Assembly (NCBI RefSeq): GCF_037975245.1
Contig: NC_092568.1
Location: 41,963,631 to 42,027,630 of the forward strand
Reading direction: 5' to 3'
Length of the DNA: 64,000 nucleotides
DNA from: Apostichopus japonicus
Lineage: Eukaryota; Echinodermata; Holothuroidea; Aspidochirotida; Stichopodidae
Part shown: piece after piece, positions 3,001 through 63,369 of the stretch
Numbering within the stretch: position 1 is the first letter of the stretch
Layout of the letters: the number at the start of each line of letters is the position of its first letter
Notes under the pieces: generated by a model
The model's input: only the letters and a program-made list of their open reading frames with translations
Told to the model about the DNA's origin: nothing
Databases searched by the model: none
Program-made: the position numbers and the translations under genes

Positions 3001-3019
3001 CTTTAAGTACAGTACTACA
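1..3019. other. Upstream non-coding DNA, nothing recognised
   Basis: AT-rich sequence with only short open frames lacking coding character. No splice-compatible exons, RNA genes or element termini were identified by eye. Confidence 0.4.
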
Positions 3020-4033
3020 ACATGCATGACAATACACATATAAACTAGATACATTTGGGATCTACTGTACATTCTTCTGTACTTTTCAAGTAGACTAGGG
3101 TGTAATAGGACTAAGCTACAATAGACTTCAGTTTGGCTAGGTCTTGTTACTATAGGTCACTGTTAAATCCCTAGAACAAATGTTGAAAAAAAGAAGTAAT
3201 GTAGACCAAGGCCTAGTAGCAACATGCATGACAAGTACACATATAAACTAGATACACTTGGGATCTACTGTACATTCTTCTGTACTTTTCAAGTAGACTA
3301 GGGTGTAATAGGACTAAGCTACAATAGACTTCAGTTTGGCTAGGTCATGTTACTATAGGTCACTGTTAAATCCCTAGAACAAATGTTGAAAAAAAGAAGT
3401 AATGTAGACCAAGGCCTAGTAGCAACATGCATGACAAGTACACATATAAACTAGATACACTTGGGATCTACTGTACATTCTTCTGTACTTTTCAAGTAGA
3501 CTAGGGTGTAATAGGACTAAGCTACAATAGACTTCAGTTTGGCTAGGTCATGTTACTATAGGTCACTGTTAAATCCCTAGAACAAATGTTGAAAAAAAGA
3601 AGTAATGTAGACCAAGGCCTAGTAGCAACATGCATGACAAGTACACATATAAACTAGATACACTTGGGATCTACTGTACATTCTTCTGTACTTTTCAAGT
3701 AGACTAGGGTGTAATAGGACTAAGCTACAATAGACTTCAGTTTGGCTAGGTCATGTTACTATAGGTCACTGTTAAATCCCTAGAACAAATGTTGAAAAAA
3801 AGAAGTAATGTAGACCAAGGCCTAGTAGCAACATGCATGACAAGTACACATATAAACTAGATACACTTGGGATCTACTGCACATTCTTCTGTACTTTTCA
3901 AGTAGACTAGGGTGTAATAGGACTAAGCTACAATAGACTTCAGTTTTGCTAGGCCATGTTATTATAGGTCACTGTTAAATCCCTAGAAAAAAATGTTGGA
4001 AAAAGAAGTAATGTAGACCAAGGCCTAGTAGCA
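3020..4033. repeat. 203-bp tandem repeat, five copies
   Basis: The unit starting ACATGCATGACA begins at 3020, 3222, 3425, 3628 and 3831, a period of 202-203 bp. Copies 2-4 look nearly identical and the outer copies carry more substitutions, which fits recent expansion. No coding potential was seen. Confidence 0.93.
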
Positions 4034-7464: not shown

Positions 7465-7713
7465 ATGCGGCGACTCTACGTAGTGTTTATTTTTATTTAC
7501 TTCGTGTATGGCCGGTCCGTAAGAGGAGACCCCTCGTCCATGGAGGCAGACCCTGCTAGAATCCCTCTTTACATCGGAGGTATGTTTTCGTTGTCTGGGG
7601 GTTGGGATGGATCTGGGTGTCTGGTATCAGCTGAACTAGCCCTGGACCAGATCAACAACAGATCAGATATTCTACCGGATTATGAGCTCAAGATGATTTG
7701 GAATGATACAAAG
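7465..7713 (+). CDS. Gene A exon 1: signal peptide and first VFT strand
   Basis: Encodes 83 residues. A basic start (MRRLY) and a hydrophobic run of about 12 residues form a signal peptide. YIGGMFSLSGGWDGSG follows, the first strand of a GABA-B Venus flytrap, and then LALDQINNRSDILPDYELK. The Trp of SGGW matches the GABBR1 ligand-contact Trp (W65 in human numbering). An NRS sequon lies in this exon. The exon ends in phase 0 at a GTGAGT donor. Intron 1 is 2.1 kb and contains a 55-bp repeat array. Confidence 0.88.
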
Positions 7714-10700
7714 GTGAGTTTGCAAATGAGCAGATATCATTTCTAGATTTTCCATCATCGTATCTTTTTGTTTTCCAAAAGTTAGCTCCTATCTTCCAGT
7801 CTCTTTAATCTTCTTAATCAACATTGTATTATGTTGGGTAAGCCTTATTTTTTTCTTTCTTTCCTTACCAAATTTCATTATTTTTTGAGGTTGTTGCAAT
7901 TAGGGGCAGCGCTGTTGTACTACCTTGTATTTGTTAAGATACCTCCTTATACCCACGACGAATAAAACATGAAATATTGTACGTTTGTTCACACCGCTGA
8001 GTCGAAACTAAGCAGTTTATGTTACTTTCCATTCCATATACTACCTACACCTATGATAGATTCCATTTTGTAATTCAATTCAGTTGAACTTGATTTCGAC
8101 CAACAATGTTTAAAGAACTTGCAGTGATGTCTTCAGACAATAGACTTAAAACATGATAAAAGGTTGAGGAGATTACCCAAGGAAGCTACTGAAATGCTTG
8201 TGGAATTTGAATCTCTTTTACAGAGAAAAAAGAAAACATCATTACTGTTACTAGTGTATGTTACATACTATTAATTTAATCTACGCCTCTGATAGATCCT
8301 GTTACTAATATATGTTAAATACTATTTCATGTAATCTACGCCGCTCATAGATCCTGTTACTAATATATGTTACATACTATTTCATGTAATCTACGCCGCC
8401 GATAGATCCTGTTACTAGTACATGTTACATACTATTTCATGTAATCTACGCCGCTGATAGATCTTGTTACTAGTATATTTTACATACTATTCATGTAATC
8501 TACGCCGCTGATAGATCCTGTTACTAGTATATGTTACATACTATTTTATGTAATCTACGCCGCTGATAGATCCTGTTACTAATATATGTTACATACTATT
8601 TTATGTAATCTACGCCGCTGATAGATCCTGTTACTTGTATATGTTACATACTATTTCATGTTAGCTACACCGCTGATAGATCCTGTTACTAGTATATTTT
8701 ACATACTATTCATGTTAGCTACACCGCTGATAGATCCTGTTACTAGTATATTTTAAGTTACACCAGTAACTAGAATTTAAAGATGATTTTGTTACTTAGC
8801 TTTTCCAAGGTAGCTGTAACACTTATTATAATCCGTCAACTTTTAACTTTCTGTTCTTGGCTACACCGCTGAAGAGATTTTACAAATTATGTCCATGGTA
8901 GTTTGTGTTCAATAATGGAAAGAATGGAATCTGGTCTACGAACAATTTAAAAATATATTTATTGATATTCATTTCTTTGCTATACCGCTGAAGAGAACCA
9001 AGAACAGATTATGTTTATTTTATCCATAGTTGTTATAACAATGAATATAATCTAGCTTATAAAAAGTTAGAATGTTAATTTTCACTTCTATGGCTACAAC
9101 AGCTGAACAGAATCTAAAACAATTCCATATGTTACTTTGATTTCCATATTTGTTATACCATTGATGGCACCGCAATCTATCAAACAAACAATTTACATTT
9201 CATTGGTTTTTATGATAAAAGCGAGTTGTGTTATTATGCTTTCCATATTTGTTATAATGATCAATATAATTTAGTTTAAGAACAATTTTAATTTTAATAG
9301 AATAGAATAGAAAACTAAGACACATCATGTTACTGTGTTTCCATAATTGAGGTACAAAAATAGAGAATTTAGCATACCAACAAGTCTGTGTTAATTTCCA
9401 TTGGTTCTGCAGTCTTAGCTACACCGCTGAATAGAATCTAAAGCAGGCTATGTTCCTTATGTTCCAGAAATAAGAATATCTTATGATATTATTTTCTTTC
9501 TCCTCTATTACATATAACTCTCACAGTTTCATAAGAATAAGTTTTCAGTCGATAACATATGGCCCTGGCTATTAACAATCTTATTGTTTGGTGTTAATTT
9601 ATTCATTTATTCATTTATTCCACATGTGAATACATACTGTTCATTGGAGTATTCCTAAGGCTCCCTAAAACAATTTCATTTACTTTTGTCGAAAGCTGTT
9701 ACTGTAGGTAGCATAATTTAATTTCCAAATATTTTTACTGGACAACTTATCAAAAAAGGAACTAGCCTCTGGAATAACTGATGCCTGAAGTGTGCACGAC
9801 AGTTTGCTACTCGGGTACTGTATAACCACATCGTGGAAGAACCCAGAAAGATAATCCTGCTAGGACCAGCTTGCTCCTCAGGGGCTGAGTTGGTTTCTGA
9901 GACAGCTCGCTTTTGGAATCTCATTATGGTTTGTATGATAGTTAGCGAAATACAAAATTGATGAGATAATATAAGAACTATAGATAACAAAATACATTTA
10001 AATGATTTGCTCTCATTATGTGTGCCACATATGTCTTATCTTTCATAGGCGTGCTGTGTTTTAAGGATGTTCCCTCATTAGGTATACCACATATGACTTA
10101 TCTTTGATAGGCGTGTTGTGTTTGTTTAATGATTCATTTTCTTTACAATATGTTATATTTTTGTGGGTTTTTTTTCCTGAAAAAAAATATATTAAAAACC
10201 ATGATAATGTTTTATCGACGCACATATCACAATCTACTTCTATTGAATTAAGTAAATTAAATTTAGCATTTAATAAATAAATTAATAGATAAATAATTAA
10301 AGTTCATACATTATGAGCTCAGAACGTCTCAAATGTTGTATATCACTCGACCAGTTACGATCATAAAATGGCGAGTAAATCTGACCAAATTTTGTCTGCA
10401 AAGCACAATGTATGCATGAACTTTCCAAGAAGCTTTTAAGTGGTTAGTGCATGTCACTTTGCAATATTGTGTTGTTGATGTTTGTTTCAGGTTTTAGTTT
10501 CAGCCGGTTCTCCAAATCTTTCTGACCGGTCTAAGTTCCCTAATGTATTCCGTACAGTCCCGAGTTCGTCGAACATCTACGGCGACCCTCTGATCTGGTT
10601 TATGAAGCAATATGGTTGGACGCAAATAGGATATCTTTCTGACAGTGATAATGGATTCTCTGCGGTAAGTGTATACCCTTAATATATATGTAAATTACTG

Positions 10701-12724
10701 TGTGGCTGATATAAATACCACAAAATCATACATAACTATATGAAGAAGTGTCAAAGATGATGGAGAGAAGAATGCAATATACATACAAACAAAAATCGGC
10801 AAGAAAGGAAAAAAGAAATAAAATAAACATATTTTCACTATGGACAATTTAGAGACAGAATCGTTCATCTCGAGGATTTCCAACCAATTATTGAAGATGA
10901 TTTCATCACCCTGATGTCTAGTTTGATTCAACAACCATAATGTTTGTATTTTGATTCAATCACAATAATGTTTAGTTTTCTTCAATCACACTAATGTTCA
11001 GCTTATTTGTTGATACCTCAACAGAGAGAGACTTCATTTATTGTTTCCATGGAAACGATTGATTAAGTTTAGTCCTTCTCGTTTTTTCTTTTCTTTTTTC
11101 TTGTTTGTGCTTACGTGACAGGTACAGATGGAGTTTGTGGAGCGTGCCTCTAACATGGGATTTACTGTAATAGCGGATTTAAGTTTAGATGTTGCCAGAA
11201 ATCAAGTTGAAAACTTGAAGGCACGTAAAAATCATATCAATAAATCTTCTTTTATTTGTTACGTCAACCATGCTCGTATAGCCTTGATCCTCAAAGATGT
11301 AGGATAACCTAAAGGGTTCATCTCTTTGGCTGTAATAAAACGCAAGGCTAGAAATATTATAGAATCAACCTTGTTTTTGTAGCAGAACTTAGGATGAGTA
11401 CAAGGATATAAGATATGAAAAGTATAACTCTGCCCCCCCGCCTTCTTATGTCTCATTGTCCCTCTAAGATAAGATATAAGTTTTATTTCCGCCTGTTAGG
11501 AGACGCAGGTGCACCACAGTACTTAATCGTGATCACTTGATGAAAATAATCCATCGTAACTATTTGAAGATCATTATAAGAATGTCAATTTGTAATATAT
11601 AACTCGTTACCAAGGTGACGTGATTTTTTTCAAGTGTAAGAGGCCGTAGATTTGGATGCAGCAAATGTCACTGGTCTAATGAGATAAATTACTGTTCGAA
11701 TACAATCTGTTACAAATCGATAGCTTAAGAATAGTAAATTCATAGTCTAGTCTTCAAAGTTACATTTTCTAAACTTTCAAATTACGCAGTGCTTTTTTCC
11801 AAGACAAAGTGTCTAAGACGAAGAGGGATGAAGATCAGGCAACAGATGGGGAGACGATGGGGGCGGGGAGGGGTGAACGTGGGTAGATAAAGCCTCCTCG
11901 GTGCTTTGACTTTGGCATTGAGCTTTGCCGAGGCTCTAAGTCCGTAATAGGTCCAACATTTTGTAACATCCAGCGCTCCTTTAGGTTGGTCTACCGGACA
12001 TGCATGTGTTTTAAAGCAACTGTTTCATGGTCTGTCCCTTATTCGGATTTAGGATCTGATTGTTTCTATTCTTTCTGAATAATCTACCTCTTATGATTGA
12101 ATACAAGTTGAAATTTCGTTTTGACAAAATTCATCTGACATTACAACAGCACAAAATGAACCCCGGGCTGATGTGTCTTACTTACGTATATGTGGTAATA
12201 TTTTATTTGTAGAAAAGTTTTGTGTTTTATTCTTCGTACTGATCGTCTTGACATTATTCATTCAGAATATAAAATTAGTTATAGGTTTAAGTTTAGTCTC
12301 TTTTTTGCATATGTTTAAAGATGCGACATCCATTTACTGTGATTAATTTATTTATTTGAAGCTGAAGCAGTAAGAGTCAAAAATTGTTTCCTCTGTTAAT
12401 TGATATACACAGAGCCGTGGAATTCGAATTGTTTTCATTTACTGTCTGGAGGCGAAAGCTCGACTTGTTTTCTGTGAGGTATGGTTCATTACTTGTCTTC
12501 TGTGAGGTATGGTTCATTACTTGTATTCTGTCAGATGTGGTTTCATTACTTGTATTCTATGAGGTAGGTTTCATTACTTAGAAATGACCTTAATAACAAT
12601 AAGATACATATAATGGTGTCGGCTTATGAGCAAACTAGAACGAATAAGCGGCTCCTTTCTAATGACGACACCAGTTAGATAGTCCCAATCATTGAGGATG
12701 TCAATATGATGCTATTCAAAACAT

Positions 12725-12793
<69 letters not shown>

Positions 12794-13420
12794 TATATTT
12801 ATATATATTAAAAAAATTGAAAACACCACAGACTTTAACTTATACATCTATTTACCAAAATTAATACAAAAAGAACGACATGTTTCGAAAGTAGCGACTT
12901 TCATCATCAGGTTACAGACGCAAAATGAACAAGTAATAGCAGACAAATGTACACTAGCAATAACACACAAGGACAAGTAGATTAACTCAACAAAGATAAC
13001 ACTGGACAGTCAAGCTGTTTGTTGAGATTGGGTTTATCCCAATTGATATGTAGGCTTTCTTTGATCCTATGCTGGAGTTAGGTGGGAGCTGAGTCGATAA
13101 TTTTGAATGAGTTATTGTCACATAGCCGCTTACAGTTGGGAAATTTAGCTAAGTGTTTGTAAATATGTGAATTCTTATCGGTTTTTAGATGCTCAGAAAT
13201 CCGTGTAGAAAGGTGACTATGGGTTTCCCCTATATAACAAGCATTACAGCTTGTGCAGATGAATTTATAGACCACACGAGATTTAAGGTATGATGGATTA
13301 ATGTCTTTTACTACACACATATTTCGAACTTTAAATGAGATAAGCTCATTCAAAATTATCGACTCAGCTCCCACTAAACGCCAGCTTAGGATCAAAGAAA
13401 GCCTACATATCTCATATATA

Positions 13421-13492
<72 letters not shown>

Positions 13493-16400
13493 GAATTAAT
13501 CGTAGTGAGTTGGAAAACCAGAAAAACAGTGAAGAAACTTCCAGCATCCAAATGGATTCGAACCCGGGCCCCCGCTTTATATGCGGACACCCTAACCAAT
13601 TGACTATGAACGCTGATTGTATGTCCGGAGGTTCGAAACCGGTAAGGAAGGTCGTAATTCCACTGAATGCGTTTTGCACCTGTATCGAACAATACTAGTT
13701 ATGTTTTGGTGACATATTTGCCTTATACTCTAGAGATCAAACATGATGCTAACCAACTCGATTCCTAAAGCCGGATCTATATATTCTTAAAGCCGGATAT
13801 ATATATATATATATATATAAGGTTTACGTATCGACATTACCATCAAACCTTTTTGGTCTTAAGTAGGACGTGAATCCCTTTTCGATGACCTAATATAGCA
13901 TGGTTAAGAAGCTCTAGAAATCCGCCCTACTTTTTTCCATTAAAGAAAATATATATTTGCGGGCTTGTTGCTTGTTTTTTCTTTCTTTTTTGCGCCTTAA
14001 AATCAATGAAGCATTATACTGTACGTTACGAGTGTTAACTTATACAACGACATATATCATCATTATTCGTCAGGCGTACAAAATTGGCTTTTACGGTTCA
14101 GATGTGTTTTGGATTATTACATCCTGGTACAACAAGAATTGGTGGATGGCGCCAGATGATAAAATTGATTGTTCTCCGGAGGAAATGTCGGAGATCGTAG
14201 AAGCTTCTTTAATGCTTGGTATAGATGTACAACCAATTAGTACAGAGGATAAACCCACTGTGGCAGGAAATGTAAGTATATGAAATTAATATTAAGATTA
14301 ATGCTAATTAATGTTATGAAACTATTATCAATTAAGTCTGCTAGACAGGAAGTATGATAGGGGTTCGTATACTAAAGTACTCCTTCAGAGAATACAAACA
14401 AATAAGTTTGAGTGTTGAAGGATTCACCTCTATTTTAAATAATCCTTCAAAGAATACAAACAAGTCAATTTAAGGGTTTTTAATGATTCACCTTAAGTTT
14501 AAATATTTTCCCTTTCTTCATTTCTTTTGAATAATTATTTCTACTAATTGCAAAATATAATTATACTTCTGCATAATAAACGTCTGTCAGTTACACCTGG
14601 AATACGGATAGAAAATTACGATGATGAAATTTTCATGTTAGCTGAAAGCTAAAACATTTTAAGACTGGTTCAGAATTTATGTTGATTGAAGCTATGCAGA
14701 GAGAGAGTACTGACTAATTCACAGGTAAGACTCATATTCGAATCTTGGCTGGTGTGTCTGTTATCAAACATGGAGGCAGGTTATATTTTCTGTCCAGGGC
14801 TCCAGAAAACAATCGCGGTTACCTCATAAAGACTTTGGCACAATTTATCTCAAGATGAAGTTTTCGTGATTTGGCAATAGTATTGCAGACTTTGTCATCG
14901 GAAACATTGAAACAACCCCCCCACCCCCTTCCCCATTAACCCAATACTGACGGTATTTATCATGCTTCTTTGTATCCTCAGACTCCTGCTGACTTTTTAG
15001 ATGAGGTAACCAATAGATTGAATTGGAAAAGGTATGAGACTTACACTGTTAATAACTATATGGCCTATACCTTTGATGCTGTATGGTCGATTGCACTGAT
15101 GTTAAATCGCACCCTGCAATCAGGAGGAATTCGTTCTGCAGCGACGAGAGGAATGACGAGTTTGGATGTCGACAGTGAAACATTACATCAACTATTTTTC
15201 GATGGACTTGCTGAAACCAATTTCTTCGGAGCTTCTGTAAGAAATGTCAGTGGGAAAGTTCGGGGGGTGGGGACAAAATATAAACATTTAAGTAGAGGAT
15301 ATCTTCCAATTATAGGAGTTAAATTCTTCTGTACGTCTCTTCTCTTTTCATATGTTCATGTCCAGTCTACTACTGTATGAAGCATCCCATGGCTTACTTG
15401 CTCTTCTGCAACACCCTGGTTACCCTGTTCATACGATGTCCCGCATCAAAGATATCCCTTTCCTTAGATAACCTAATCCATCATCAACACTAGTATATAC
15501 CTTGTTATTTACCCCACAAAGAGAGTGACTAAGAAACAATGAATTTCAGAATATTTTAGGGTGGAATCGGGAAGAGTGGTTAAGTGCAAGCCAGCAAATT
15601 GGTTAAGTGAAGTGAATTCAATTCTCACTCACTAAATTAGTTGATCACTTATTATTTATTTTTTAAATAACCTTGTACCATTTCTATTATTTGTCCGAAT
15701 GAGCCCCATCTGACTCATATTTTACCACCTTCACATCATTCCCTTACTGTTACCTTATATTCAACATCTTAATAACCTCTTCTTTCTGCTAAATTACATT
15801 TTTAGTATGCTTGTAGCAGTACTGCCTACGTATTACCTCACTCGTGTTACCTTCTTACGTTACTACTTGCACATACCAATTGCCACACTAAATCCAACCC
15901 GAAGATTACCGATCTAAGATCTAACCGATCTAATCCAACCGATCTAAGACTGTACACTTTTGAAATTCCCAGGGAGATGTTAGCTTCATGAGAGGAGAGC
16001 GACTCGGAAGCTCGGCTATAACTCAATTAAGAGGTAAATTCATGATTCTACAGAGTGAATCAAGTGTCGTTATTAATCACACAACAAATGACCTATATCT
16101 ACTGATTTAACATAGTGAAGATATTGACGTTTTTATTCATACAGCAAATTATCTATATCTACTGATATTTCTTATTGTCAGCGAATAATTCATTATATCA
16201 TTAATACATTAGTAACATAACATCACTAAAACCCTATTGTATAATTGATTTTCAAGCGAGTTATAGTTCGTTGTTTGGCATAGGACAGACCGTTGGCAAA
16301 CTATCATTATAGCTGTCACTACAGAAACACCGTTTGAGTGTTTAAAATTATGAAATAATGTGTACTTGTCTCCCTATTTACACAATAGTCATATTAGTCA

Positions 16401-19045
16401 GTTTTGATCATAGGAATCAGGAGAACGTTCTTGCTCCTCCCCCCACCACAAATACCTTTACTGCTATATCTACAGAACTCCTTAAACTGTTATTTTAATC
16501 GCTCGTTATATACAGGGTGGACCAGAGGAAGCATTGGAAAAGCAATAAGAAAGATTGTTTTAGTTGCAATTTAGACTTTTTAGCTGGACCTGTCGAAAAT
16601 TTATTTCAAAATATTCTCGTAATTTCGACCCAATCTTTTTTTTATGGTGTTACTGTAGCGTCACTTTATGCCATCGTAACACCAAGAGAAATAACATTCC
16701 GGGGAATTTCTCCCTAAAACCCTATCGACACCCACTTTTAGAAAGTTGCCTTTACGCTGCTCATCAGATAAAAGGTGCGTATGTTACAATGTTAAATCTC
16801 AAGCTTACCTTCAATCAATTTTCAGGTACTTGCAAACAGGATTGGACTCTAACGAACAGGTATTGTTACTTTAGTTTCCATCAACACTGGAAGACTTGGT
16901 TCCAGGCTCTCGCATCGTGCGCACGCGTAAACGCTTATCTTGCGGACTTCAACAATGGTGATACATTTATGATGATAAACGGGTCATGGACTAACAACGA
17001 AATCAACATATTGTAAGCAAAGCTTACTTTATCTTCTTTCAGAAATTAGTTCATGAATATTAAAGTGTCACCAAAGCCATTTGCATGTATATATTCTTGT
17101 ATAATTTCAGTGAATATATAAACAGTGGGGGAGGCTAAAGAGTTTGTTTACACGTTTTGTGGCATTGTCTTAATGAGCAGAACTGATTGTTACATTCCCT
17201 GACCCTACTATTTAGCTTACTACACCTCCCCCTCATCACACGCTACATTGCATCTTTAGATCGCAGGTGTGTATCTCTCACAAATATCGTGATCCAGCCA
17301 CCATTTTTCACAATATAAATATGTAAACGTGATTAATTTGTATCCTTACAGGCCTTCTAACCTTGACATGGAAAACACCAATGAGAATGCTAGTTGCCTC
17401 TTCTTTGATGGAACGCGACTAGTTACTTCAGAAAATTGTGCAGAGAAGAGACCTTACCTCTGCAAACAGAAAGCAGGTGTGTACATTTTAAAAAATCAAG
17501 GAAATGCTGATCTGACCAGGAAGTTGTTAGATGTCTTTGCTCTGACAGAAATAGTAGTATTTCCCTAGTCAAATTGCAAGGCTGCCGTTCAAACTATTAA
17601 AACTATTTGGCAGAAGGAATCCTTCTAATCTATGAAGGGGAGGTGGGCTTGATTCTGTAGTGTATAGATGGTGGGGGAGGATCGGGTTTTTGTGGAGGGA
17701 GCGGATACGGTAGGGTTATTCCGCTCAGGAAGGGGGAGAGATTCTTTGCGCATATCTATGACGTGAGGCGCTGGTATAGTTGTGGGTATTGCGAATGGGA
17801 GTGACCAAACTGCCTTGTGTGTTGGGAGAGGACATACCAACGAATAATCATAACCTAAACATATAGAAAGGCTCATGGAGCAACCGAATAAGCAAAGATC
17901 ATTTTTCTTCAAGTTTGGCCGGTCGGAATGTGAGTATGTATGTTCAGTACATAAGTCAATAGTTATAACTAATGATCTAAATTCGTTTTACATTTGGTTA
18001 TTTGCTATGGGTATACGTGTGGATTCTACTCCTTGCAATTTTTGTATCTATTTACTTGCTGTTACATATTTTTTATTTAATTGATATCACTATTAATATC
18101 AATTTATTTTTTAAAGAGTAGTGAAAATTTCTCCCAGAACAGAATCAGATCCAATGACCTAGATTCCATCCCATCTAGCCCATGGATAGATTTTCGCGTT
18201 TCCATCGGCCGATTGGCCCTATTACGATATGGCCACATTAGAAATGTTAAGAGTTAACATGCAACTGTAATTGCAGATCAAATCTGTTACCCTAACTATA
18301 TAACATCATGAACCATTAACACTACATTATAGCAACACTGTTTGGTATATGAACGACTCCTTCTCTGAGCTATTACGCAACAGATTTATGATTCCATGGT
18401 TCATTGCTAGTCATGTCATTTTACTGATTCTGAGATATTAACCTGTGTTAATGGCAATGCTCACGTCCTTACTATGTATGTTCGGTGTGTTTAATATTAT
18501 TATTTGACCGTTCAAAGAAAAAAGGTAAATATACTTTCTCATCGTTAGGACATTTCTTCAAATTTATCAATATAATACTTTTCAGATTAAATCCAACTTT
18601 TGTTGTTACGTTAAATCTATAGAACAAATACTAAGGAAATACCTGCTAAAAGGGTAATATCTAAGTCTTTTGTCGGGTTTCTGCAACAAATTTGACGTAT
18701 TTGTTTTTATTCCGATATGTTTTTCACTTTGCAGAATTTTCTCAACTCCCAGTGGCAGTTTACTCTTCCTTCAGAGATGAAATGAATTGGAAGGACGAGA
18801 TTATGTGGCCAGGTTTGAAATAATACGTCATTATTGACAGACATTACTAGAAATAAGTCTGACTTACGCCAAGTTACGGTATTTATCTTAAACTATCTAG
18901 TCATGGTCACTTAGGATCAGATTTTTGAATTATTACCAAATCAATGTTTGACTTATTGTTAGTCCTTATATGACAATACTTAATTCAATATTAGCTCATC
19001 AATCAACTTCATAGAAAGTCTTACATTCTAATCAAAAGCAGAACC

Positions 19046-19142
<97 letters not shown>

Positions 19143-22100
19143 CAATTCCACAATTTGCTGCAACACGCCGAAATATGTGTCTCCGTGTGTTCTAAGAAAT
19201 TTATAATATTTTTAGCATCGAAATTTGAGTCAGTCGTTATCCGTGTTCTCTCACGTAAGAAAAAGGTCGTTGTATGTAAATGATAAAAATTGTCTGAGTC
19301 CAAAGAGAACAGTTTATTCGTCAAATTCTGCGGTAAGCACGTCAACATTTCAAAGTTTTGATGAAATTTTTAGCTGTAACATCACTTTTACTCGTTTGCA
19401 TTGCATTACCCTGCACCAACCAGATGGATTGTCAATTCACCTATAAAGGTAACTCAACAATAATATTAAAAATATTTATATTAAAAAAAGGTATGGTATT
19501 CTATCTCTTATCGGCATTCATCGCACTTTTTCTCTTTTAAATTTCATGTAAATGAGTAGAGAAATGTAAATTTGTAAGTGGGTATTATTCAGCGCTCGGC
19601 AAATAATGTGTCAATGTCGTCGTGAATTTAAAACGCGACAAATGAGCATATTAGCCAATGACTGTTGAAGTACGCCTGGGTTTTCTATGACACATATCTG
19701 ACGTAAAAGCAGAAATTCCCGTAATGGCGATATTGTCTTCTATAAGTGATGTATATGAATATTCCAAAATAAATAAATAAAAAGATTCCGGTAATACTTA
19801 AACTTTCTTTATGGAAAATAACCCATATTAATTTTTGTATGTCAATATTTCGGTTGAAACTAACCTCTCAGAAACAACAAAATAACCAACAATAAATGAA
19901 ATTAAAAATATCGATCTCATCTCGTCATTGACAGTCATGAGGCAGAGATTGTGTAGAAATTTGTTTATGTATCGTTTATATAGGCCTATACACATTTGTG
20001 TTCTTACAGCTGTATCTTTCGCGTAATGTCCCTGGTTCGATTTTGGTGTGCAATGTGCGGTATCATATTATGTTCACAAGCACCTTATTTGTCCTATAGT
20101 GGTCAAGTACAATACACCCGTAGTTTGATATTTCGTTATACCACAACATGTTGTGTACTAACATTACCGTAGTTAAACCGATATGTTTTGTTATATTTCT
20201 CTGTTTATCAAATAACACTGACCCTGGTGAATGTGATCTCTATTCGCGATAACTTCAATATGTTTTTTCCCCTATTAATATTATGTTCTTCTGTGGAATT
20301 GAATATGATAAGGAAAAAAACCAGCAGCAGTTTAGTTCAATTATCATGTTGGCATCGTTACTGTTCTTTGACAAAAACCAAACAAAAGATGCCTCTGGTT
20401 TGGTTTAATCTGGAGGGATCTACAGTCAATTTTTTATTTCTTCAACTGTTAAAGCATAGCGTTTATCGTATAACGGTATAGGCTGTCAATGTAGCGTACG
20501 ATCAGCTATGGTAGGCTAATGATTAATCTCAACTACCATTGCAACTTTTGAATGCAATGTACAAAACCGGAGAAACAGAATATAAATGAGTCAATCGTGG
20601 CTGAAATATTTTTTGCTCAACTAAACATGCAAGAAAACTTGATTATAAAATCACAACTGTCTTCCTTTGCAATATCAAAAAGCTCTTGAATAGGAGAATG
20701 TTTTGTAACTTGAAGAATTCTCTTAGATCAAAACATTGCATTACTGATTGTAAATCAGTACAGTACAACGTATTCGACTCTTTCAAAGAAGAAGACCTTT
20801 TGACCAAATATGAAACCTCGAACACAAGGAGATTAAAATGTTTTGTTAAGTGTTGTCATTCAACAACTCTCTAGAAGGCTATTTTCCTGATTTCATGATG
20901 TACCTATTGAGTTGTATTCACCAATAGCATGACCTTTTCGTTTCTTCTAACGACGTAAATTATACTCAAACCTATTCACGACTCATATGACTTGCAACGA
21001 TATCAACTTTGAGCATTATTTCCGTTTTGCCAGTTTGGTTCTCGTAAAATGACCAAAATGCTGTGTTTGGTTTTATTTTCTCTTTTGAATATTGAAGCTA
21101 TGACGTCACGGAGGCGCTGCGATTATCATGCCAAACATGGGTATAGCGTCAAGTTTGAAGGTCATTTGTGTACCTGCTGTGGGGTTTCTAAAATTTTACA
21201 TATATATATATATTTATATATTCATTGGGGAATAAAATTATTGTAAAGGATGAAGAGCAAAATAACTCTACTTGACAACCAAAAGATTGTAAAGAGAGGC
21301 TAAGCCAGGAATAATATTATCGCTGTTTTTTTTCTCCTAATCTTCAGTTACGCACAATCTTTGAAACTTGCAAGGTTGTTTAATACGTCCTTAGTTATTT
21401 TTTATAAATATAGCTTAAAAATTTGCTTTATGTCGGTTCTTAAAAGTTAATGACTACTTAATCGTAGTACATATGACAGAGATTATGCAGTAGATATTTA
21501 CAAGCCGTTGATAACGAAGGACATGTTGGAGTCCTTGGATTCCTCTCTCCGTCTCTCCTTTCTCGTCAAGCATCTTTCCGTTATTACACAAGTGTTGATT
21601 TAACGACCAACTAAAGATTCTGTTCAGTTCTTAATTTTCGTCGCCAGGATATGTGATATGTTACTATGTATAGCATGTAAATACACATGTATGACGGTAA
21701 CCGTACAAAACCTCAATAGACTTTAACTACATTATTTGAAATGACATTTTCCTTGTAAGCTCATTTATTGATATGAGAATTTGTTCTCCAATAGCATCGG
21801 TATATTGATCAAAATCAACTACAAAGATTGCTTTTACTCTTGTGTCAACATATCCAAAAAGAAATTGTTCTCGACAATGAACTACTAAAACAGACGACAG
21901 GGCATTTTGGAAATGTCGTCATTTCAAAACTTGGCCAGTAGTATTTCTTATATGATTAGAATAATGTTTCTGTTGCGACGATATTATACTCTGTTGTAAA
22001 ACAAAATGTAGCTTCCCTGCTGTACCAAGCAATGACAGATCTCCAATATGTCTAAAATTGAATCATAATTCTCTGTTGTAGTTTAATATAGTTCTCTGTC

Positions 22101-25100
22101 GAGACAAATAAAGATAGTTCCATGTTGAGATCTGTACCTGAATCATAATCCTCTGTTGTAGTTTAATGTTTGTAAAAGAGCTACTCGTCAAAAGAATGTT
22201 GGTAATGAAAACCTCAAAATAGCATCTTATTAGTCGTAAAAGTTTATCGGAAATGTCTGATCATGCTTCCCCTTCAAAACTAACAGTTAACATTACATAA
22301 TCCAACACATCCACACAATGTAGTTCTTTAAAAGGATAGGCTTAATATAGCCAGACGCACTCAGTCATTATGTATTATCGTTTTGCTGGCACCACATATG
22401 TTATTAAAATAAACTCACGTTAAACAAGAAGAATTGTTGAAGTCAGTCCTCGTCGATCGACGGCTGCTTCGTGCTCCGCATATGTGATTATCTCATTTAG
22501 ATTCGCGTATCAACATTCACAGTGACAAGCAGATAGACTTGCTGCCATACATGCGTAATGTTCTCTGCAGTATTACACTCAATCATGTTATGAACCTTCA
22601 GAATAACGTCAACTAAGATTCTAAGTGTGTAAAATATCCATTCTTACGACAAGTTCATATAAGGGACAGAGTAAAGGAGGTATACAATTCAAGTATTATA
22701 TGGAAATTTTATTCAATTCGTAAAGTGATTCAATATGTGTTGTGTTCTGATTTTAAATATTAGTGTCTCTGAAAAGAACAACTTATGTTAACTACTTTTT
22801 TTTTATTGCAAAGCTATGTTCAATGTGATAAGAAAAAACAGATGAGAGAAAGAGATGAGAATCGGAAGTAAAGGCAAACGCAAAAGATCGCACTGATAAA
22901 CAGGTAGTTTCAATGCTTCCTCCATGCAACAGAATTACTGTAGCGAGGAGGTTAAGATAGGGTTTCTTTACTACGTAACTAACAGAATTAAGACACAACA
23001 AAATTATGTAGGTTGCTTGCAGTGTATTAGCAAGCTGTAAACCTGACATGCTTCCTTGCACCCAAAATTAGATAAGTCACGTACAAATATAATGAAAATG
23101 GGTTATTTTAACATTAAGGACTAAACATAATTCACTCCTTATAGAGTAAAACTATAGCATTTAACAAGAGTATACAACACATTGTTGATTAAAAACCATA
23201 TATCAATAAGGGGCGTGATCTATGGTAGCCTAAGTGACTACTTTTCAATAGGTCTAGTGAAATACTCGAAGGGTCAACTTCGAACTTGAAATATCCAAAG
23301 AAACGTAATGACATGTTGCAGCAAATGTATGTAAAATCCCCATACGTGAACATCACTGAAAAAATAAACTAGTCAATATTGCCACAGACTAACGTTAAAT
23401 TAGTCTTTAACGTTAGTCAATGCACCAGGACTAGCAAAAATCTTCGTTTCATCGCTGCTTCTTAGTTAGTTTACACTGACTAAGGAAAATATAATCGCAG
23501 CTTAGTCGGTGGCGACGGACTAAGGTATTTTAACCCATGGACTAAGAACGATACGGACACCCGATTTACGCCATAATCGTAGCTTAGTCGGTGTCGACGG
23601 ACTAATGTATTTTAACCCAATTCGATTCACTTCAATTTGGAAACCGAGAGGCAACGGCAGCTTGCTGGGCTTGGCATAGTTTCATACGATCACTCTAAGC
23701 AACTTTCAACCGTAAATCACCCAAGAAGGTCTTTAGAAGAATGGAGGTATTAACTGCATCATCGGCCTACCTGTTATTCCTTTAACTAGAAGGTAAAATT
23801 AAAGTTAATTGTTAGGCCACTGGCACTAGTACTGTATTATGGTTAGTGTAACGCTACCGTTGTCACGTTGGCGTTTCGCAATACACAAGTGCAATGACAG
23901 TGAGTAGCCTATAGGCTTCTACTGGGTACTGCAGTGCATTCTCAACACTAAAGTGTGCATTCTAAACACCAATTAACAATGTGTTATGTGTGTATTGGGC
24001 TAGATTGAACAGTGGCACATAATCTTCTAATTTATTCCCAAACAAATGCTGGAACTATAAGGCTCAATAGTTTATTTGAAGTCTACACTCATTTGGTAAA
24101 GATTTCCTGTAATTTCCCATGTGAATCTAAAATGGGTAGGCTTTGTGATATTGAATAAGCAAGGCTAGACCTTCAAACGTACAGTCACAGTCGGCTGAAC
24201 ACATGTTGGCTAGTCAACGGTATTATGTTGCGAGCAGTCAGGATGCACGCTTCAGTTCTATTTAACCTTTTCATTTATCATTGTTTAGTATTTAATTTCC
24301 GGTCACGCCCAGGAAACAATTGCGACATTCCTTCACGGTCGACTTGCTTACTGTAAGAAGTATTAACCGTTTTTTTCTCAGGAAAGCTTGATAGTCTGAA
24401 GTTATTATAACATGTGCTTTTAGTATACTGCCAAAAGAGTAAGTTGCTGTATTTGTATTGATATTTTATGTAGAAGTAACGGAAAATTTAGTATGTTTAG
24501 TTTGGTCTAATTGCACGTTTTTTTACTGTCCAATGTAGTGCAGGGTTCACTTGCGCGAATTCAAATTATTCTGTTTATGTGTATGCATCGATTCTTAGAT
24601 TATGATGTTTTTTTGACATGTATTTGTAATTCAAGCATCTGTTTAGTAGCAAAGTTTAAAGGTTAAGATTAATTAGTTTTCTCTTTTTTATCCTAGATTG
24701 AATGAAACTCATTGGCGTAAATAATAGATCAGATGATACAGTTTAACGCAGTTGCTAAAACTCTGGGTATTCTCTAGTCTTCGCCGGTCCATTATATACT
24801 TTAGTACTACTAGTAAGACTAAATCAAAACGACCGTAGACAAACTTAGTGTAACAAAGTACTGATTCTCCTCTAGCCTAGGTCTAAACAGGCTTGTTATG
24901 TGAGCAAGCAAAATAACAACTAAAAACGATTAGGCCTATAAATAAGTTGGCTCAGTGCATTTCTGTTTCTAAAATTTTATATTTTTAAAGATCATAAAAA
25001 CAAACAAAGATTTAGCCCATGTTTTATTATCTCTGTATTCTGGGCATTTGATTCTGGTTGCAATGGTGATGACACTCTCGTTCAAATTTTCAGCTTTATA

Positions 25101-28100
25101 CAGTCTGCTTCAAACTTTGGGATTGTTTTTTTGAGACTATAGTGGAAGCAAATCTCACATAACTTTGTGGTGACATCTTTATTTTTTTTTTTTTTCAAAT
25201 GATGAATACTTTGCTGTTTCTTTTTTCCAGCAGGAATTGAAATGCCAAATATCTAAGTCAAGGGTGAGCTTTCCTGTGATGTACGACACCAGTGTGGAGG
25301 CAACAACAGAAGAGGAGAACTGTGTTATATATGGCTTAAAGACATGTTTTAAGATGATATATTGGTACCCTTCGCAGAACAAAAGAGTTTATCCAAGAGT
25401 CCAAAAAGCAAAGGAACAAGTACCATAGAGAAAAAAGATGGAAGAGTGAGTTTAACTATTGTACCCAACTGTTTAATGATATATAAGATATTTTCATAAC
25501 CTGTTTTAAAAAAAAAAAAACAGTCTAGTTTATCATTTACGTGCAAGCTTCATAAGTTTGGTCAAATTTTCACTGATCTGTAGAGCGGGAGTCCAGAGGG
25601 TTTGGTTAGCTGGGAAGGTAACCAATTGCCTGGTACATCACAATGTTCACAATGCATTCCTGTATATGAAACCTGACGACTGGCAAACCGACTGTGGTGG
25701 ATGTGGCTGGGAGAGCAATTTTAAAGTCACCTAATAGCTAACCTAGAGCAGCTTTCATGGTAACCACATCAAAGTAAGAACAATGTGTCAGGTATGGCCC
25801 CAAGAGCAACAAATGGCCATTGCCAGTAATTATTGGTGGTGGGGTACCCCTGCCAGTGATCTATAATTGACCCCTCACGGCTGACCTAGGTCAGCTCATG
25901 AGGTAACCACTTGAAACCTACTGGAAAATGTTGGTTAGGACTTCAGATACAAGGGATGGGCATTGCCAGTAATTTTTATTGGTGGGGTACCCCTGCCAGT
26001 AGACCCTTCATATGTAAGGATGGGCATTTCCAGTATTTTATATTGGTGGGCCACCACTGCCAGAGTCCGCCCATCCCTTACATATAGAATCCTGTTAATA
26101 ATTTTCCAGTAGTTTTCAACTGGTTAAATCATGAGCTGACCTAGATCAATGAGGGGGGGGGGGCTTTTTGGGGGTCTACTGGCAGGGGTACCCCTCTAAT
26201 ATAAATTACTGGAAATGCCCATCCCTTACATATATATAGAGTCCTGCCAATCATTTTACAGTAGTTTTCAACTGGTTACCTCATGAGCTAATCTAGGTCA
26301 ATGGGGGATGGGCATTTTGGGGGTCTACTGGCAGGGGTACCCCACTAATATACATTACTGGAAATGCCCATCCCTTACATATATATAGAGTCCTGCCAAT
26401 CATTTTACAGTAGTTTTCAACTGGTTACCTCATGAGCTAATCTAGGTCAATGGGGGATGGGCATTTTGGGGGTCTACTGGCAGGGTTACCCCACCAATGT
26501 AAATGACTGGAAATGCCCATCCCTTACATATGAAGTGATACCTATCATTTTCCAGTAATTTTTCAACTGGTTATCTCATGAGCTGACCTAGGTCAATGAG
26601 GGAATGGGCATTTTGGGGGTCTACTGGCAGGGGTACCCCCCCCCCAATATAAATTACTGGAAATTCCCATCCCTTACATATGAAGTGATACCATTTTCCA
26701 GTAGTTTTCAACTGGTTACATCATGAGCTCATCTAGGTCAATTGGGGATGGGCATTTTGGGGGTCTACTGGCAGGGGTACCCCACCAATAAAAATTACTG
26801 GCAATGCCCATCAGTTGTATCTGAAGCCCTAACCAACATTTTCCAGTAGGTTTCAAGTGGTTACCTCATGAGCTGACCTAGGTCAGCCTTGAGGGGTCAA
26901 ATATAGATCACTGGCAGGGGTACCCCACCACCAATAATTACTGGCAATGGCCATTTGTTGCTCTTGGGGCCATACCTGACATATTGTACTTACTTTGATG
27001 TGTTACCATGAAAACTGATCTAGGTTAGCTATCAGGTGACTTTAAAATTGCTCTCCCAGCCACACCCACCACAGTCGGTTTGCCCGTCGTCTGGTTTCAT
27101 ATACAGGAATGCACTGTGAACATTGTGATGTACAAGGCAATTGGTTACCTTCCCAGCTAACCAAACCCTCTGGGATCCCGGTCTATTGGGATCATTATTA
27201 ACATGATTAACATAATTATTAAGTTTTGAGAAATATCTTGGTGTTATGCTGTGCAAAGCTAATAATAATTTGGTAAAGCTGCTATTCCTGGCTTATAATT
27301 TGAGGGACCTAGATTTAAATGTATACCTCCCAATATGTTATAAAATTTTAATGTAAATGTATGTTTATGATAATGTGAGTTATCATGTGCTATATCTGTA
27401 TCTGTGCTTACACGTATATCATATTTTCTGTTCACAGGTCAATAATGGTGCAGATTTTGGCTTCCTGAAGACAAGTGGGAGGTCATTTGTAGTTAAGAGA
27501 AACACTCTTTGTTCGTGAAGACTTAACTGGTGTCGATTTGGGGTACCACTTTAAAAGGAAAGTCATGAGGAACCCTTGCCCAAGATCCAACTTTGCATTA
27601 TTGTGCAGTGCTATACTTTTGCGATTCATGTTTGATCCATTAACTTGTCTTAACTTTGTTGGAAAAAAATCAGATTTTCAGATTTTATTTACAGTGATTT
27701 CTTCTCTATCTGTCGAAAGTCAGCCTTTTGTAGACATCAGAAGTTTTATCAGAAATAAATACTGCCAACGTACACATTATTTGTGTTTCTTCTTCTCTCT
27801 TTTCTTTCAGTGATGCTAGTCAGTGAAACTAGTCGGGTTTAATTCTTTCAGTGAATCTAGTCGGTGCAACTAGTCAGTCGATACGGACTAAGAAAGGTTA
27901 GTCGGGAGAGGCACCATCCTGACTAATGTAAAACCTGCTATAAACTAGTCGGTGGCTCATATAAATTAGTCGGTAAAGACCGACTAATGTCACCAACTAA
28001 TGTAACTGACTAATATACATTTACCGACTAAGAAATTGTTGATCGACTAAGCTGACGGACTAAGATGACCGACTAAGAAATCCAACTGACTAAGGAATAA

Positions 28101-31100
28101 ATTAGTCGGTATAGCAACTGACCAAGGCTATGTTAGTCGGGAGAGGCACCAGATGGACTAACGTTATGTTAGTCGGTGAACCAATTTAAGTTTTCAGTGA
28201 TGACACATACGGTACGCAGGCCTACGTATACGGGGCTAAAGATACGTACGTGTATGGTAGGCCCCATGGGACAAAATATAATATATTATATACGCGTATA
28301 TATTCGAATTAATATATGTATATATTCGAATTTATATATTCCTGCTAATGTGATTGGCTGATTTAATACGTGTATAAATTCGAATCAATACTTGTATATA
28401 TATATTCGAATTAAGACGCGTATATATATATATTCCAATTAATACGAATATTTATTCCTACTAATGTGATTGGCTGATTTAATACGTATATATATTCGAA
28501 TTAATACACGTATATGGTCGAATTAATTCGCTTATATATATGTTCGATTTAATACGTGTATATATTCGATTTAATATGTATGTATATTCGATTTAATACG
28601 TTTATATATTCGAATTAATACGCGTAGATATTCGAATTAATATTATATGGTACATTTACGTGCGGATGAGATGATATGCACGTATTTGGACCCGCTCGTA
28701 TGTAAGCATTGTCAGATTACGCACCACTCTTAAACGGATATTCCATACGTGTGAATGGTGCATACATTACATACATATGTATGACAGTGAGTGTGTATAG
28801 TGTGTAGTCTGATTGAACTGGGCGAATCCCAGCTCCTGTAGAATTTGGAAATGTATATATTTATACAACAATATGTATATATGCACATATGGGTCGGGTT
28901 AAAACAGTAATGTAGAGGTCGCACTATAAGTATGTCTACCAGAGAGCTTCTACGTGCTTTTAAAATTCACATGCATGTTCGTATGAAGTTATGTTGTTCC
29001 CTTGGAAAGTTAAATCTATAATCATCTTTAGCAGAAACAAATGCTGTAACGCTTACACATATGAGACGTTGCAATAAAGACTGGGTTTGCTTTCTTCTAA
29101 CTTCACAAGCTAAAATTTCGACTGTCTCTCCTACTTCGGATTTTCTCAAAGTGGTAGGCTTATTGGCGGTCAAAACACCGTACATTTCTGATGGATATCT
29201 ACAGAGGTTCATGCAAATCTTTATGTCATTTAAACATCGACAAGACCAATATCTGTATTCCATCCTCGTGTTTTATACATTTTATACATTTGTGATTAGG
29301 TGGTGAAGTTCCTCTGGATAGACCAACCGCTGTGGCCATCACAACTGAAAGACTAGAGATGTTAATACCAGCCAGATTGTATATTATAGTGGTGTCTTTC
29401 TCATTGCTTGGAACAATTCTGACCATTTCTTTTGGTTTGCTGCTTATTTTGATGTCGAAGTGCAGGTAAGTAATAAACACTTTAGTTGAAAACAAAATAC
29501 CTGTGAAGATGAATGATGTTATTGCATGTCCTCAGACAATGATGTATGTGCATGCTCCTTACTTGAAATTTAACTGTTCTTTTTTATCTCTCTAAATTGT
29601 ACACATCTCCCGAAAGTGCAATATTTACTAATATAGATTGAGAAGGTCTTCGATCAAAATAAAAAAATATATAACAAACAAACCGTTTTGACAATATTAA
29701 TTCCTGTATACAAATAAAGAATTATATCTTCTCGATCCGTACCATTTCCATTGCTGATAGGTCTACACCATTCCCTATGGTTGACTGCATCATCTACTTC
29801 AGCTGTATTCTGATGTATTGCTCAATTGCCTTTGTAAAGTCACAGATGTTTCGGCCACTTTCAGACCAAGAATACATTTGGCTTTGTAAGGTATGCAATC
29901 TTAAATAATATTACCATAATCAACATTATACCAATCTGTCCCCCCCCCCACCCTCCCCATCCATACCTATCAAGCCCATCTGAATCTGGTTCTGTGTTCG
30001 TTCTGTGCGTCGTTCGGATTAAGCCGTGGGATATTGACCATCCTGCCAATATACCTTGTTAAATAATCGTAGGTGTGGTTATACACTTCTGGTCAATTTG
30101 GTTGCTCAGTCCCTGCATTAGAGAGGTTTGTGTCTCATATAACACACATATACGTCACTTATTGACCTTCGATTGTAAACCTCCGAATGTCACAATTTTA
30201 ACTTCCATGGTGCGTTTTTGGTGACGACAGTAAGTTATTATATTTTGGTGGTATTTTGTCTAACCTTTAAGTCGGTCTTGTTTATATGATCATAAGATAT
30301 TGAGCCAGGAATTTTAATTGGATTACAAGGGTTTTGATCTTTCATTTTAATTTACTTTCTCTCCTTTACTTTCAGATCAAATTCTCACTTTTTTCAGTTG
30401 GACTCACGGTTGGCTTGTCCGCAATGGTTGGTTTGACCTGGGCTACTTACCAAGCCTCCATTCATGTTGGATCACGTGATAAGGTAAACCTCCAAGCTAA
30501 ACACAATCTTAGATTTGATAAACTGTGGCAATAACCCTCATTATTGATTGCTCTTGTTTATGAACACTTTACACTACTAACATCACACGGCATAGCAAGT
30601 ATCATGTAAAACCAAAATAGATTGTATTTCTGGGTATTAACGCAACACTGTCCTCTAATAACCTTCTACCTTACCTTACATAATCCAAGTCTTACAAATC
30701 TTACATTTCTTCACAACGTTAAGCTTCTTTCCCTCAGCCTACCAGTAGTAGAAAACTGTATCTAATCATTGCTGGCTTTGCTGCAATCGACGTGATAATG
30801 CTGGCCCTGCTAAATCACTTCTATCCATTGTATATACGGATTCATCCACTACAGACTGAGGTAAATCAAAATGTCTTTAATCTACAGATTGTTCATCCTT
30901 CATCATCCTTACAATGTGTAATATATACTTTTCTTATTACATATACTGACTATTCAAGGTGTCATTTCACATTTAACACAAATATCTTAAAGTTAATATT
31001 TATGTACAAGGTATTTACATGAACATATAATATAGGAACTGTTTATATAGAAGATTTTTTTCAGAACTATGTGCAGTCTTTCATTATCCACGATACTACA

Positions 31101-37139: not shown

Positions 37140-37412
37140 ATGAAAATTATATATTTATTTGGAATTGTAAGGAGAGAATTCATCCTTTTAATGTTACTCG
37201 CATCTCAAATGGTGACGAGTGAAGTCAACATCACATCATCCAACATGGAGGAAGAGAAAGTGCCACTGTATATAGGAGGAATGTTTTCAATGACAGGAGG
37301 ATGGGATGGTTCTGGATGTTTGATGGCAGCAGAACTAGCCCTGGAACAGATCAACAATAGGACGGATATACTACCAGACTATGAGCTCAAGATGGTTTGG
37401 GGTGATACTCAG
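37140..37412 (+). CDS. Gene B exon 1: signal peptide and first VFT strand
   Basis: ATG at 37140 opens MKIIYLFGIVRREFILLMLLASQ, a signal peptide or signal anchor with two hydrophobic stretches. A later Met at codon 18 would give a simpler signal peptide. VPLYIGGMFSMTGGWDGSG and NRTDILPDYELKMVW follow, closely matching gene A exon 1. Sequons NITS and NRTD are present. The exon ends in phase 0 at GTAAGA. Intron 1 is 10.65 kb and packed with mobile elements. Confidence 0.88.

Positions 37413-40193: not shown

Positions 40194-40242
<49 letters not shown>

Positions 40243-43074: not shown

Positions 43075-43142
<68 letters not shown>

Positions 43143-63323: not shown

Positions 63324-63369
<46 letters not shown>

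Follow-up and report, generated by a model that had tools for sequence, protein, structure and literature searches.

A C-type lectin domain inside the Venus flytrap of GABA-B-like receptors in a sea cucumber and other ambulacrarians

In the sea cucumber Apostichopus japonicus, a family of GABA-B-like class C receptors carries a C-type lectin domain (CTLD) inside the Venus flytrap domain (VFT). The family was met in a 64,000-nucleotide stretch of contig NC_092568.1, hereafter the window (C8:41963631-42027630), which holds two such genes, A and B. Coordinates are in window numbering unless they carry a C number, C8 being the contig of the window. In gene A, a VFT strand, two CTLD exons, the next VFT strand and the seven-helix domain (7TM) follow one another in one open frame. 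That receptors with this VFT–CTLD–VFT–7TM architecture exist is, in our judgement, virtually certain. A first-pass annotation of the window had placed the CTLD of gene A between two GABA-B-like VFT strands in one open frame; the join is indeed stop-free, and it is repeated in gene B, in further copies of the cluster and in other species. Gene A is laid out as follows:

7465..33535 (+): gene A, a GABA-B-like class C receptor with a CTLD in its VFT, recognized by its open frame and the Pfam families ANF_receptor and 7tm_3
7465-7713, 9791-9928, 10491-10664, 11122-11220 (+): exons 1-4
11122..11220 (+): exon 4, with a GC donor (AAG/gcacgt, 11218-11225) where gene B has GT
12413-12478, 14074-14271, 14982-15236 (+): exons 5-7 (exons 1-7 together give the N-terminus and most of the VFT)
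15973..16033 (+): exon 8, VFT strand GERLGSSAITQLR ahead of the insertion, ending in phase 1
16826..17012 (+): exon 9, first half of the CTLD, phase 1 in, phase 2 out
17352..17476 (+): exon 10, second half of the CTLD, phase 2 in, phase 1 out
18735..18812 (+): exon 11, VFT strand VAVYSSFRDEMNW past the insertion, phase 1 in and out
29300..32118 (+): exons 12-17 (29300-29465, 29761-29890, 30376-30483, 30738-30860, 31283-31429, 31927-32118), linker and seven-helix domain
32766..33535 (+): exons 18-19 (32766-32870, 33446-33535), cytoplasmic tail

The hand-built model of gene A has 19 exons and 896 codons with zero internal stops, while the remaining frames contain 57 and 59. All acceptors are AG, and all donors are GT except that of exon 4. 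Joined, the exons around the insertion read GDVSFMRGERLGSSAITQLRG-[six-cysteine CTLD]-EFSQLPVAVYSSFRDEMNW without a stop. The four exons lie at the positions within 15973..18812 that had been proposed for them, and the CTLD has the six cysteines ascribed to it. The cassette formed by exons 9 and 10 measures 312 nucleotides, a multiple of 3, and the introns before, within and after it have phases 1, 2 and 1. When gene B was aligned by phmmer to GABA-B subunit 1 (GB1) in the PDB, query residues 30-421 ended at chain residue 406 and residues 560-875 began at 409. The two strands are thus joined almost directly in GB1 at the insertion site, in agreement with what had been claimed for GABA-B receptors. 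We take this site to be the last hairpin of lobe 1. A Pfam check of the joined gene A supported the receptor parts of the annotation (ANF_receptor, 2.4e-39; 7tm_3, 6.3e-16, residues 570-830). For the lectin its result was mixed: Lectin_C scored 18.6 bits in the whole protein, under the cut-off of 22.6, and 26.5 bits when the domain was cut out. In gene B (Lectin_C, 32.5 bits), all three families were above their cut-offs.

Gene B is a tandem paralogue with the same insertion, encoded by the same four exons in the same phases around a cassette of 408 nucleotides; its 7TM is 30% identical to that of gene A:

37140..63871 (+): gene B, running beyond the window (coding pieces 64454-64549 and 65057-65143)
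53536..53596 (+): exon 8, VFT strand GERLGYSKISQIQ ahead of the insertion
54270..54468 (+): exon 9, first half of the CTLD, phase 1 in, phase 2 out
54734..54942 (+): exon 10, second half of the CTLD, phase 2 in, phase 1 out
55605..55682 (+): exon 11, VFT strand VTVATYDSVSDDMIW past the insertion

The predicted A. japonicus protein P0001 corresponds to gene B, with which it is identical across 894 modelled residues. The CTLD is retained in both gene B records retrieved, P0001 and P0002 (isoform X3, which is without exon 7). Both genes belong to a tandem cluster of about nine copies. Matches to the first VFT exon are spread over nine places between C8:41742683 and gene B (42000887), with genes A and B among them, and the further copies lie upstream of the window genes on the same strand. 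Four of them (P0003, P0004, P0006 and P0008; P0004 minus its first exons) were traced exon by exon in the 200 kb around the window, and the exons around the CTLD have phases 1-2-1 in each. P0005 and P0007, encoded on the same chromosome, have the insertion as well. At C8:38.75 Mb, exon 8 is again followed by a CTLD exon. The nearest retrieved relative of gene A is P0003, at 44% identity.

We considered whether the arrangement was a chance open frame, or a false join in which a lectin gene or relic sits inside an intron of an ordinary receptor. The former was rejected, and the latter is next to inconceivable: the same layout is found in two neighbouring genes, in four more cluster copies and in proteins predicted from other genomes, and frame and phases fit on both sides. 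The possibility that the insertion is a peculiarity of gene A was likewise rejected, because it characterizes a family.

Some of the other copies have features of their own. P0008 is a predicted protein without one 7TM exon, although a stretch of C8 at that place, about 67 kb upstream of the window, matches P0005 at 92%; the missing exon is either a gap in the model or a sign of a damaged copy. P0004 and P0006 are 96% identical in the CTLD and 83% in the 7TM, while between P0004 and P0005 it is the CTLD that differs more (63%, against 85% in the 7TM). Judged from these sequences, gene conversion or swapping of CTLD exons inside the cluster is possible. Lectin_C matches to the second CTLD half at C8:18489759-18489944 and C8:18749212-18749400 lie near GABA-B-like VFT matches (18.48 and 18.74 Mb), and these loci are probably further CTLD-bearing receptor genes.

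The insertion extends well beyond A. japonicus. Of 7991 candidates scored in a profile search, 80 proteins were matched (the protein searches, with about 8000 candidates scored, were not exhaustive). The matches cover 15 ambulacrarian species, 12 of which have a CTLD at this site between the two strands; these represent four of the five echinoderm classes as well as enteropneusts. Such relatives in echinoderms and hemichordates strengthen the reading first made for gene A. The species are the sea cucumbers A. japonicus and Holothuria leucospilota; the brittle star Amphiura filiformis; the starfish Patiria miniata, Asterias amurensis, Asterias rubens and Acanthaster planci; the sea urchins Lytechinus variegatus and Diadema antillarum; and the acorn worms Ptychodera flava, Glandiceps talaboti and Saccoglossus kowalevskii. 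Antedon mediterranea, Anneissia japonica and Diadema setosum were represented among the matches only by CTLD-free rows; the crinoid proteins found in this non-exhaustive search (P0079 and P0084) are without a CTLD, and so are the cnidarians, protostomes and vertebrates in the alignment.

A tree of the receptor body was built from 67 rows, comprising gene A and 66 of 94 proteins, with columns absent from lectin-free reference rows excluded. The 28 proteins left out were kinase or distant matches, fragments, the isoform P0002, redundant GABA-B-like rows and P0056, which has a CTLD and no listed 7tm_3. All 40 CTLD rows fell into one clade of 50 rows with SH-aLRT support of 100, together with 10 Amphiura rows labelled CTLD-free, and the rows of this clade group apart from the GB1 rows. 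Three trait changes suffice on the tree, which we read as one gain and two losses in brittle stars; branches with support of at least 95 force at least two. A mixture-model tree of 54 rows (13 of the 67 being dropped) agrees. P0045 of Amphiura filiformis, labelled CTLD-free in both trees, has the second half of a CTLD only (72 residues, 3 cysteines), and the absence of the CTLD from the predicted Amphiura proteins could partly be a matter of annotation. We consider a single ancient gain of the CTLD to be highly probable. The echinoderm and hemichordate lineages have been separate for more than 500 million years.

The hairpin is interrupted by a phase-1 intron in two GABA-B-like genes of this genome that have no CTLD, one on C7 (..TINIEQNR/G-GVEVVIGTYY.., an intron of 896 or 897 bases) and one on C16 (..HKQLQ/D-HDEVKVAEYY..). 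The cassette is symmetrical, with phase 1 on both sides, and the receiving intron has the same phase. The exon shuffling that had been read from the flanking phase-1 introns is therefore supported both by the 1-2-1 phases and by these two genes. On this comparison of gene structures, the phase-1 intron of the hairpin is the likely entry point, and entry of a symmetrical phase-1 cassette into it would be the simplest history. When the hairpin introns of these lectin-free genes were searched by sensitive tblastn, 15 proteins serving as queries, neither yielded a CTLD exon. The sole overlap, on C16, scored 25 bits (P0034 576-624, E 0.049) and spans the acceptor, its intronic part being without cysteine.

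Apart from the insertion, the receptor body is that of a GABA-B-type receptor. ANF_receptor and 7tm_3 are above the Pfam cut-off in genes A and B, and both were matched by 37/37 relatives at E ≤ 0.01. The Cys-rich domain NCD3G had no match in A or B and is not among the 7 families matched by the 37 relatives, and Pfam found no Sushi domains in A or B. Gene B matches GABBR1 in the PDB by phmmer at 1.2e-92, its fold matches are GABA-B, and a helix is predicted in the cytoplasmic tail. The VFT is the part most conserved between phyla (67% between Amphiura and Ptychodera).

The ligand pocket differs from that of GB1. The ligand residues of GB1b are listed as Trp65, Ser130, Ser153, His170, Tyr250 and Trp278 in the retrieved part of PMC7411975. 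We counted their equivalents in the 40 CTLD rows, using only rows with a residue at the column, and in controls of six GB1-type rows and 21 other rows (GB2-like, GB3-like, crinoid, lectin-free Amphiura and so on). Glu349, which we take to be a further GABA-contact residue of GB1, was included. The CTLD rows retain Trp65 (32/35), Ser130 (35/36), Tyr250 (33/39) and Trp278 (38/39), and are mostly without Ser153 (8/37), His170 (0/37) and Glu349 (1/39, in a less surely aligned column). At the Tyr250 position, gene A has Leu and gene B has Phe. In the GB1-type controls, His170 and Glu349 are present in 6/6. Presumably, then, the acid side of the pocket and its aromatic clamp are kept and the amine side is gone. 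With the acid-side and aromatic residues largely retained and the equivalents of His170 and Glu349 missing, GABA is probably not the ligand; another small carboxylate is possible, as is a VFT that binds no ligand.

The lectin domain is more variable. The six cysteine columns, in the long-form pattern, are invariant in 37/37 aligned relatives, Lectin_C was matched by 29/37 at E ≤ 0.01, and a loose WIGL-type motif occurs in 24/38 CTLDs. The CTLD of gene A is compact, with about 100 residues, six cysteines and neither the WIGL motif nor much of the long loop; compact CTLDs occur elsewhere (99 residues in Asterias P0038, 94 in Amphiura P0050). A genome-wide Lectin_C search, in which 150 of 392 candidates were scored, does not list the CTLD exons of gene A or gene B. 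The best PDB sequence matches of the CTLD are the phospholipase A2 receptor, an IgY receptor, NKG2-D and Ly75. The phospholipase A2 receptor and NKG2-D bind proteins. Identities of the VFT, 7TM and CTLD were compared over 39 rows (741 pairs, P0044 being left out). Where VFT identity reaches 65% or more (28 pairs), the CTLD is in every case less similar than the 7TM, with medians of 29% and 62%; between Amphiura P0009 and Ptychodera P0022, for example, identity is 67% in the VFT, 61% in the 7TM and 23% in the CTLD. The ratio of nonsynonymous to synonymous change (dN/dS), obtained with our own counting script, was 0.26 in the CTLD, 0.21 in the VFT (partial) and 0.36 in the 7TM of P0004; 0.17, 0.14 and 0.37 in P0006; and 0.61, 0.46 and 0.44 (7TM partial) in P0008. 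The CTLD ratio in these recent copies is slightly above that of the VFT and near that of the 7TM, and by this measure no recent positive selection on the CTLD was found in the three. The CTLD thus appears to be kept under constraint yet free to change in the long term, as might equally be expected of a recognition domain or of a loosely constrained one.

The predicted structures have an intact VFT around a lectin unit, and in the model of P0004 the CTLD lies between the two VFT strands. The placement of the domains in these models is uncertain.

The reading that we favour, with moderate confidence, is that of an ambulacrarian branch of GABA-B-like receptors in which a CTLD entered the phase-1 intron of the hairpin, with a ligand other than GABA and with the CTLD as a side arm. 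A two-exon CTLD would have entered the pre-existing intron in this branch. The VFT would close on a small conserved ligand and the dimer would move the 7TM, as in other GABA-B-type receptors. The CTLD would act as an arm for protein or glycan recognition that, when bound, positions the receptor or exerts a bias on closure of the VFT, loosely comparable to the partner binding that GB1a gains from its Sushi domains. The fast divergence of the CTLD between species, on a slowly changing receptor, suggests lineage-specific partners. Whether the CTLD has a partner-binding role at all we regard as an even question. A wider reading, which we hold to be fairly unlikely, is an ambulacrarian-wide class of two-input receptors: a conserved VFT pocket would bind a small carboxylate other than GABA, and the fast-changing CTLD would bind a protein or glycan partner, conceivably a microbe, a gamete, food or a neighbouring cell, and so gate or bias closure from the hairpin. 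Such receptors would have multiplied as a chemosensory or immune repertoire in sea cucumbers and a brittle star.

Several observations weigh against the favoured reading. Gene A has one GC donor, its compact CTLD stays under the Pfam cut-off unless cut out, and it has no database match approaching 100% identity, though neighbouring copies are annotated; given this missing match, it is either an unannotated gene or a dead copy. The database proteins with the insertion are predictions. The P0004 model is poor towards the end of the CTLD (pLDDT under 50 at residues 468-483), and domain placement is uncertain because the models reach pTM of only 0.61 and 0.57. Among the 21 other non-GB1 rows, His170 is found in 0/21 and Glu349 in 5/20, so that absence of His170 marks everything outside GB1 and not the CTLD branch. 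In the 389 pairs with VFT identity below 45%, CTLD and 7TM have diverged alike (medians 22-24%), and recent within-species copies have no consistent excess of CTLD change; for these two reasons, the fast divergence of the CTLD may reflect relaxed constraint. Finally, ligand binding has not been observed for the GB2 VFT, according to the retrieved part of PMC7411975, and a VFT may thus be free of ligand. For the same reason, the missing pocket residues lower the case for GABA binding, not that for membership in the GABA-B-like family.

The alternatives differ in how much of the favoured reading they would leave standing. It is somewhat unlikely that the architecture is real and old and gene A itself an unexpressed or decaying copy, its lectin perhaps no longer folding. 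The missing database match despite annotated neighbours, the GC donor, a CTLD cut to about 100 residues with no WIGL motif and Lectin_C under the cut-off, and the 30% identity between the 7TMs of A and B would all fit decay; 896 codons without a stop despite 44% identity to P0003, six intact cysteines, the compact CTLDs of P0038 and P0050, and the model of compact P0004, which has its CTLD between the VFT strands despite the weak stretch at 468-483, do not. An optional cassette, with many transcripts joining exon 8 to exon 11 and yielding an ordinary GABA-B-like receptor, is unlikely: the cassette lengths are multiples of 3, the join skipping the CTLD stays in frame in both genes, and nine predicted Amphiura proteins of the clade have no CTLD, but both retrieved gene B records include it, P0002 lacking exon 7 instead, and its dN/dS is below 1 in recent copies. 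We would put no higher the chance that the VFT, like that of GB2, is without a small ligand and that the CTLD became the main sensor. The absence of the His170 and Glu349 equivalents points that way, against the retention of the Trp65, Ser130, Tyr250 and Trp278 equivalents and the conservation of the VFT between phyla, and P0066, the one row named GB2, has Asn and Thr at the Tyr250 and Trp278 positions, unlike the CTLD rows.

Two further alternatives concern the CTLD itself. A classic calcium-dependent sugar lectin, which would make the receptor a glycan sensor, is quite improbable, and we rejected it as an account of the domain. The CTLD pattern with its six cysteines and the frequent WIGL-type motif would suit such a lectin, but an EPN/QPD-type motif together with WND, which we take to be the canonical calcium- and sugar-binding motifs of C-type lectins, occurred in 0/38 CTLDs in a simple pattern search, and the best PDB matches include the protein binders named above. 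Quite improbable, too, are repeated gains of the CTLD at this one intron. CTLDs of distant members are only about 25% identical, too little for their sequence to demonstrate a single origin; any phase-1 cassette could be taken up by the hairpin intron; and well-supported branches force only two of the three trait changes. The receptor-body trees nevertheless fit one gain and two losses, the insertion site and six-cysteine spacing agree, and so do the 1-2-1 phases in six sea cucumber copies.

The window also holds repeats and a mobile-element relic. Frames with RVT_1 and GIY-YIG lie on the minus strand at 40559-42236, in intron 1 of gene B, and presumably belong to a fragment of a Penelope-like element. 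A fold-back element at 25581-27185, with arms of 184 and 242 bases (94% and 97% complementary), lies in the long intron 11 of gene A. Minisatellites are found in gene B introns at 51408-53214 (63-base unit x 28.7) and 59330-61235 (37-base unit x 52.2), and a 203-base unit is repeated five times with 98% match at 3018-4033, upstream of gene A.

It is unexpected that a VFT, which closes by movement of its lobes, should take in a domain of 100-150 residues at a hairpin. The data suggest that the insertion was made once, before echinoderms and hemichordates split, and was kept, as an old animal invention, and they hint that this hairpin tolerates insertions. In these receptors two recognition modules are naturally fused on one class C receptor, and the family is a candidate for chemosensory, immune or synaptic-adhesion roles. 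A database name like "GABA type B receptor subunit 1-like" may mask receptors that do not bind GABA. A class C receptor of Dictyostelium is reported to recognise lipopolysaccharide (PMC5969738). The domain combination is visible in automatic Pfam annotation, yet apparently undescribed: in the retrieved parts of the open-licence literature, we found no earlier description of a lectin-bearing class C receptor or of a C-type lectin with 7tm_3, and none is mentioned in the retrieved parts of PMC7042368, PMC5442662, PMC13228809 or PMC12716839. The first of these gives five GABA-type genes for A. japonicus, the word "lectin" being absent from the part retrieved, and one paper, in the part retrieved, reports Lectin_C on a class B receptor.

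The systems nearest to these receptors share one or other of their parts. GABBR1 and GABBR2 have a VFT without a Cys-rich domain and 7tm_3, and are the closest solved structures by sequence and fold, whereas here the last VFT hairpin carries a CTLD and the His170 and Glu349 equivalents are unlike GB1. The tail helix predicted here resembles what we take to be the coiled coil of GABA-B receptors. The Sushi domains of GB1a are, we believe, N-terminal add-ons, and amphioxus Adhesion receptors presumably have no VFT; in the present family, the added domain is a CTLD and lies inside the VFT. Presynaptic accumulation of GB1a depends on its Sushi domains (retrieved part of PMC4987283), and the two cases may be alike in that an extracellular partner-binding module was added to a GABA-B-type receptor. 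The amphioxus receptors carry Lectin_C (retrieved part of PMC2246102), a lectin domain on a G protein-coupled receptor as here, but N-terminal and in the Adhesion family. Hydra Sweet Tooth has four CTLDs on a signalling receptor (retrieved part of PMC2680970), which is, however, a receptor tyrosine kinase. The mGluR, CaSR and T1R receptors combine a VFT with 7tm_3 as here, but their extra Cys-rich domain follows the VFT (retrieved part of PMC12716839), whereas in the present receptors the VFT itself is interrupted.

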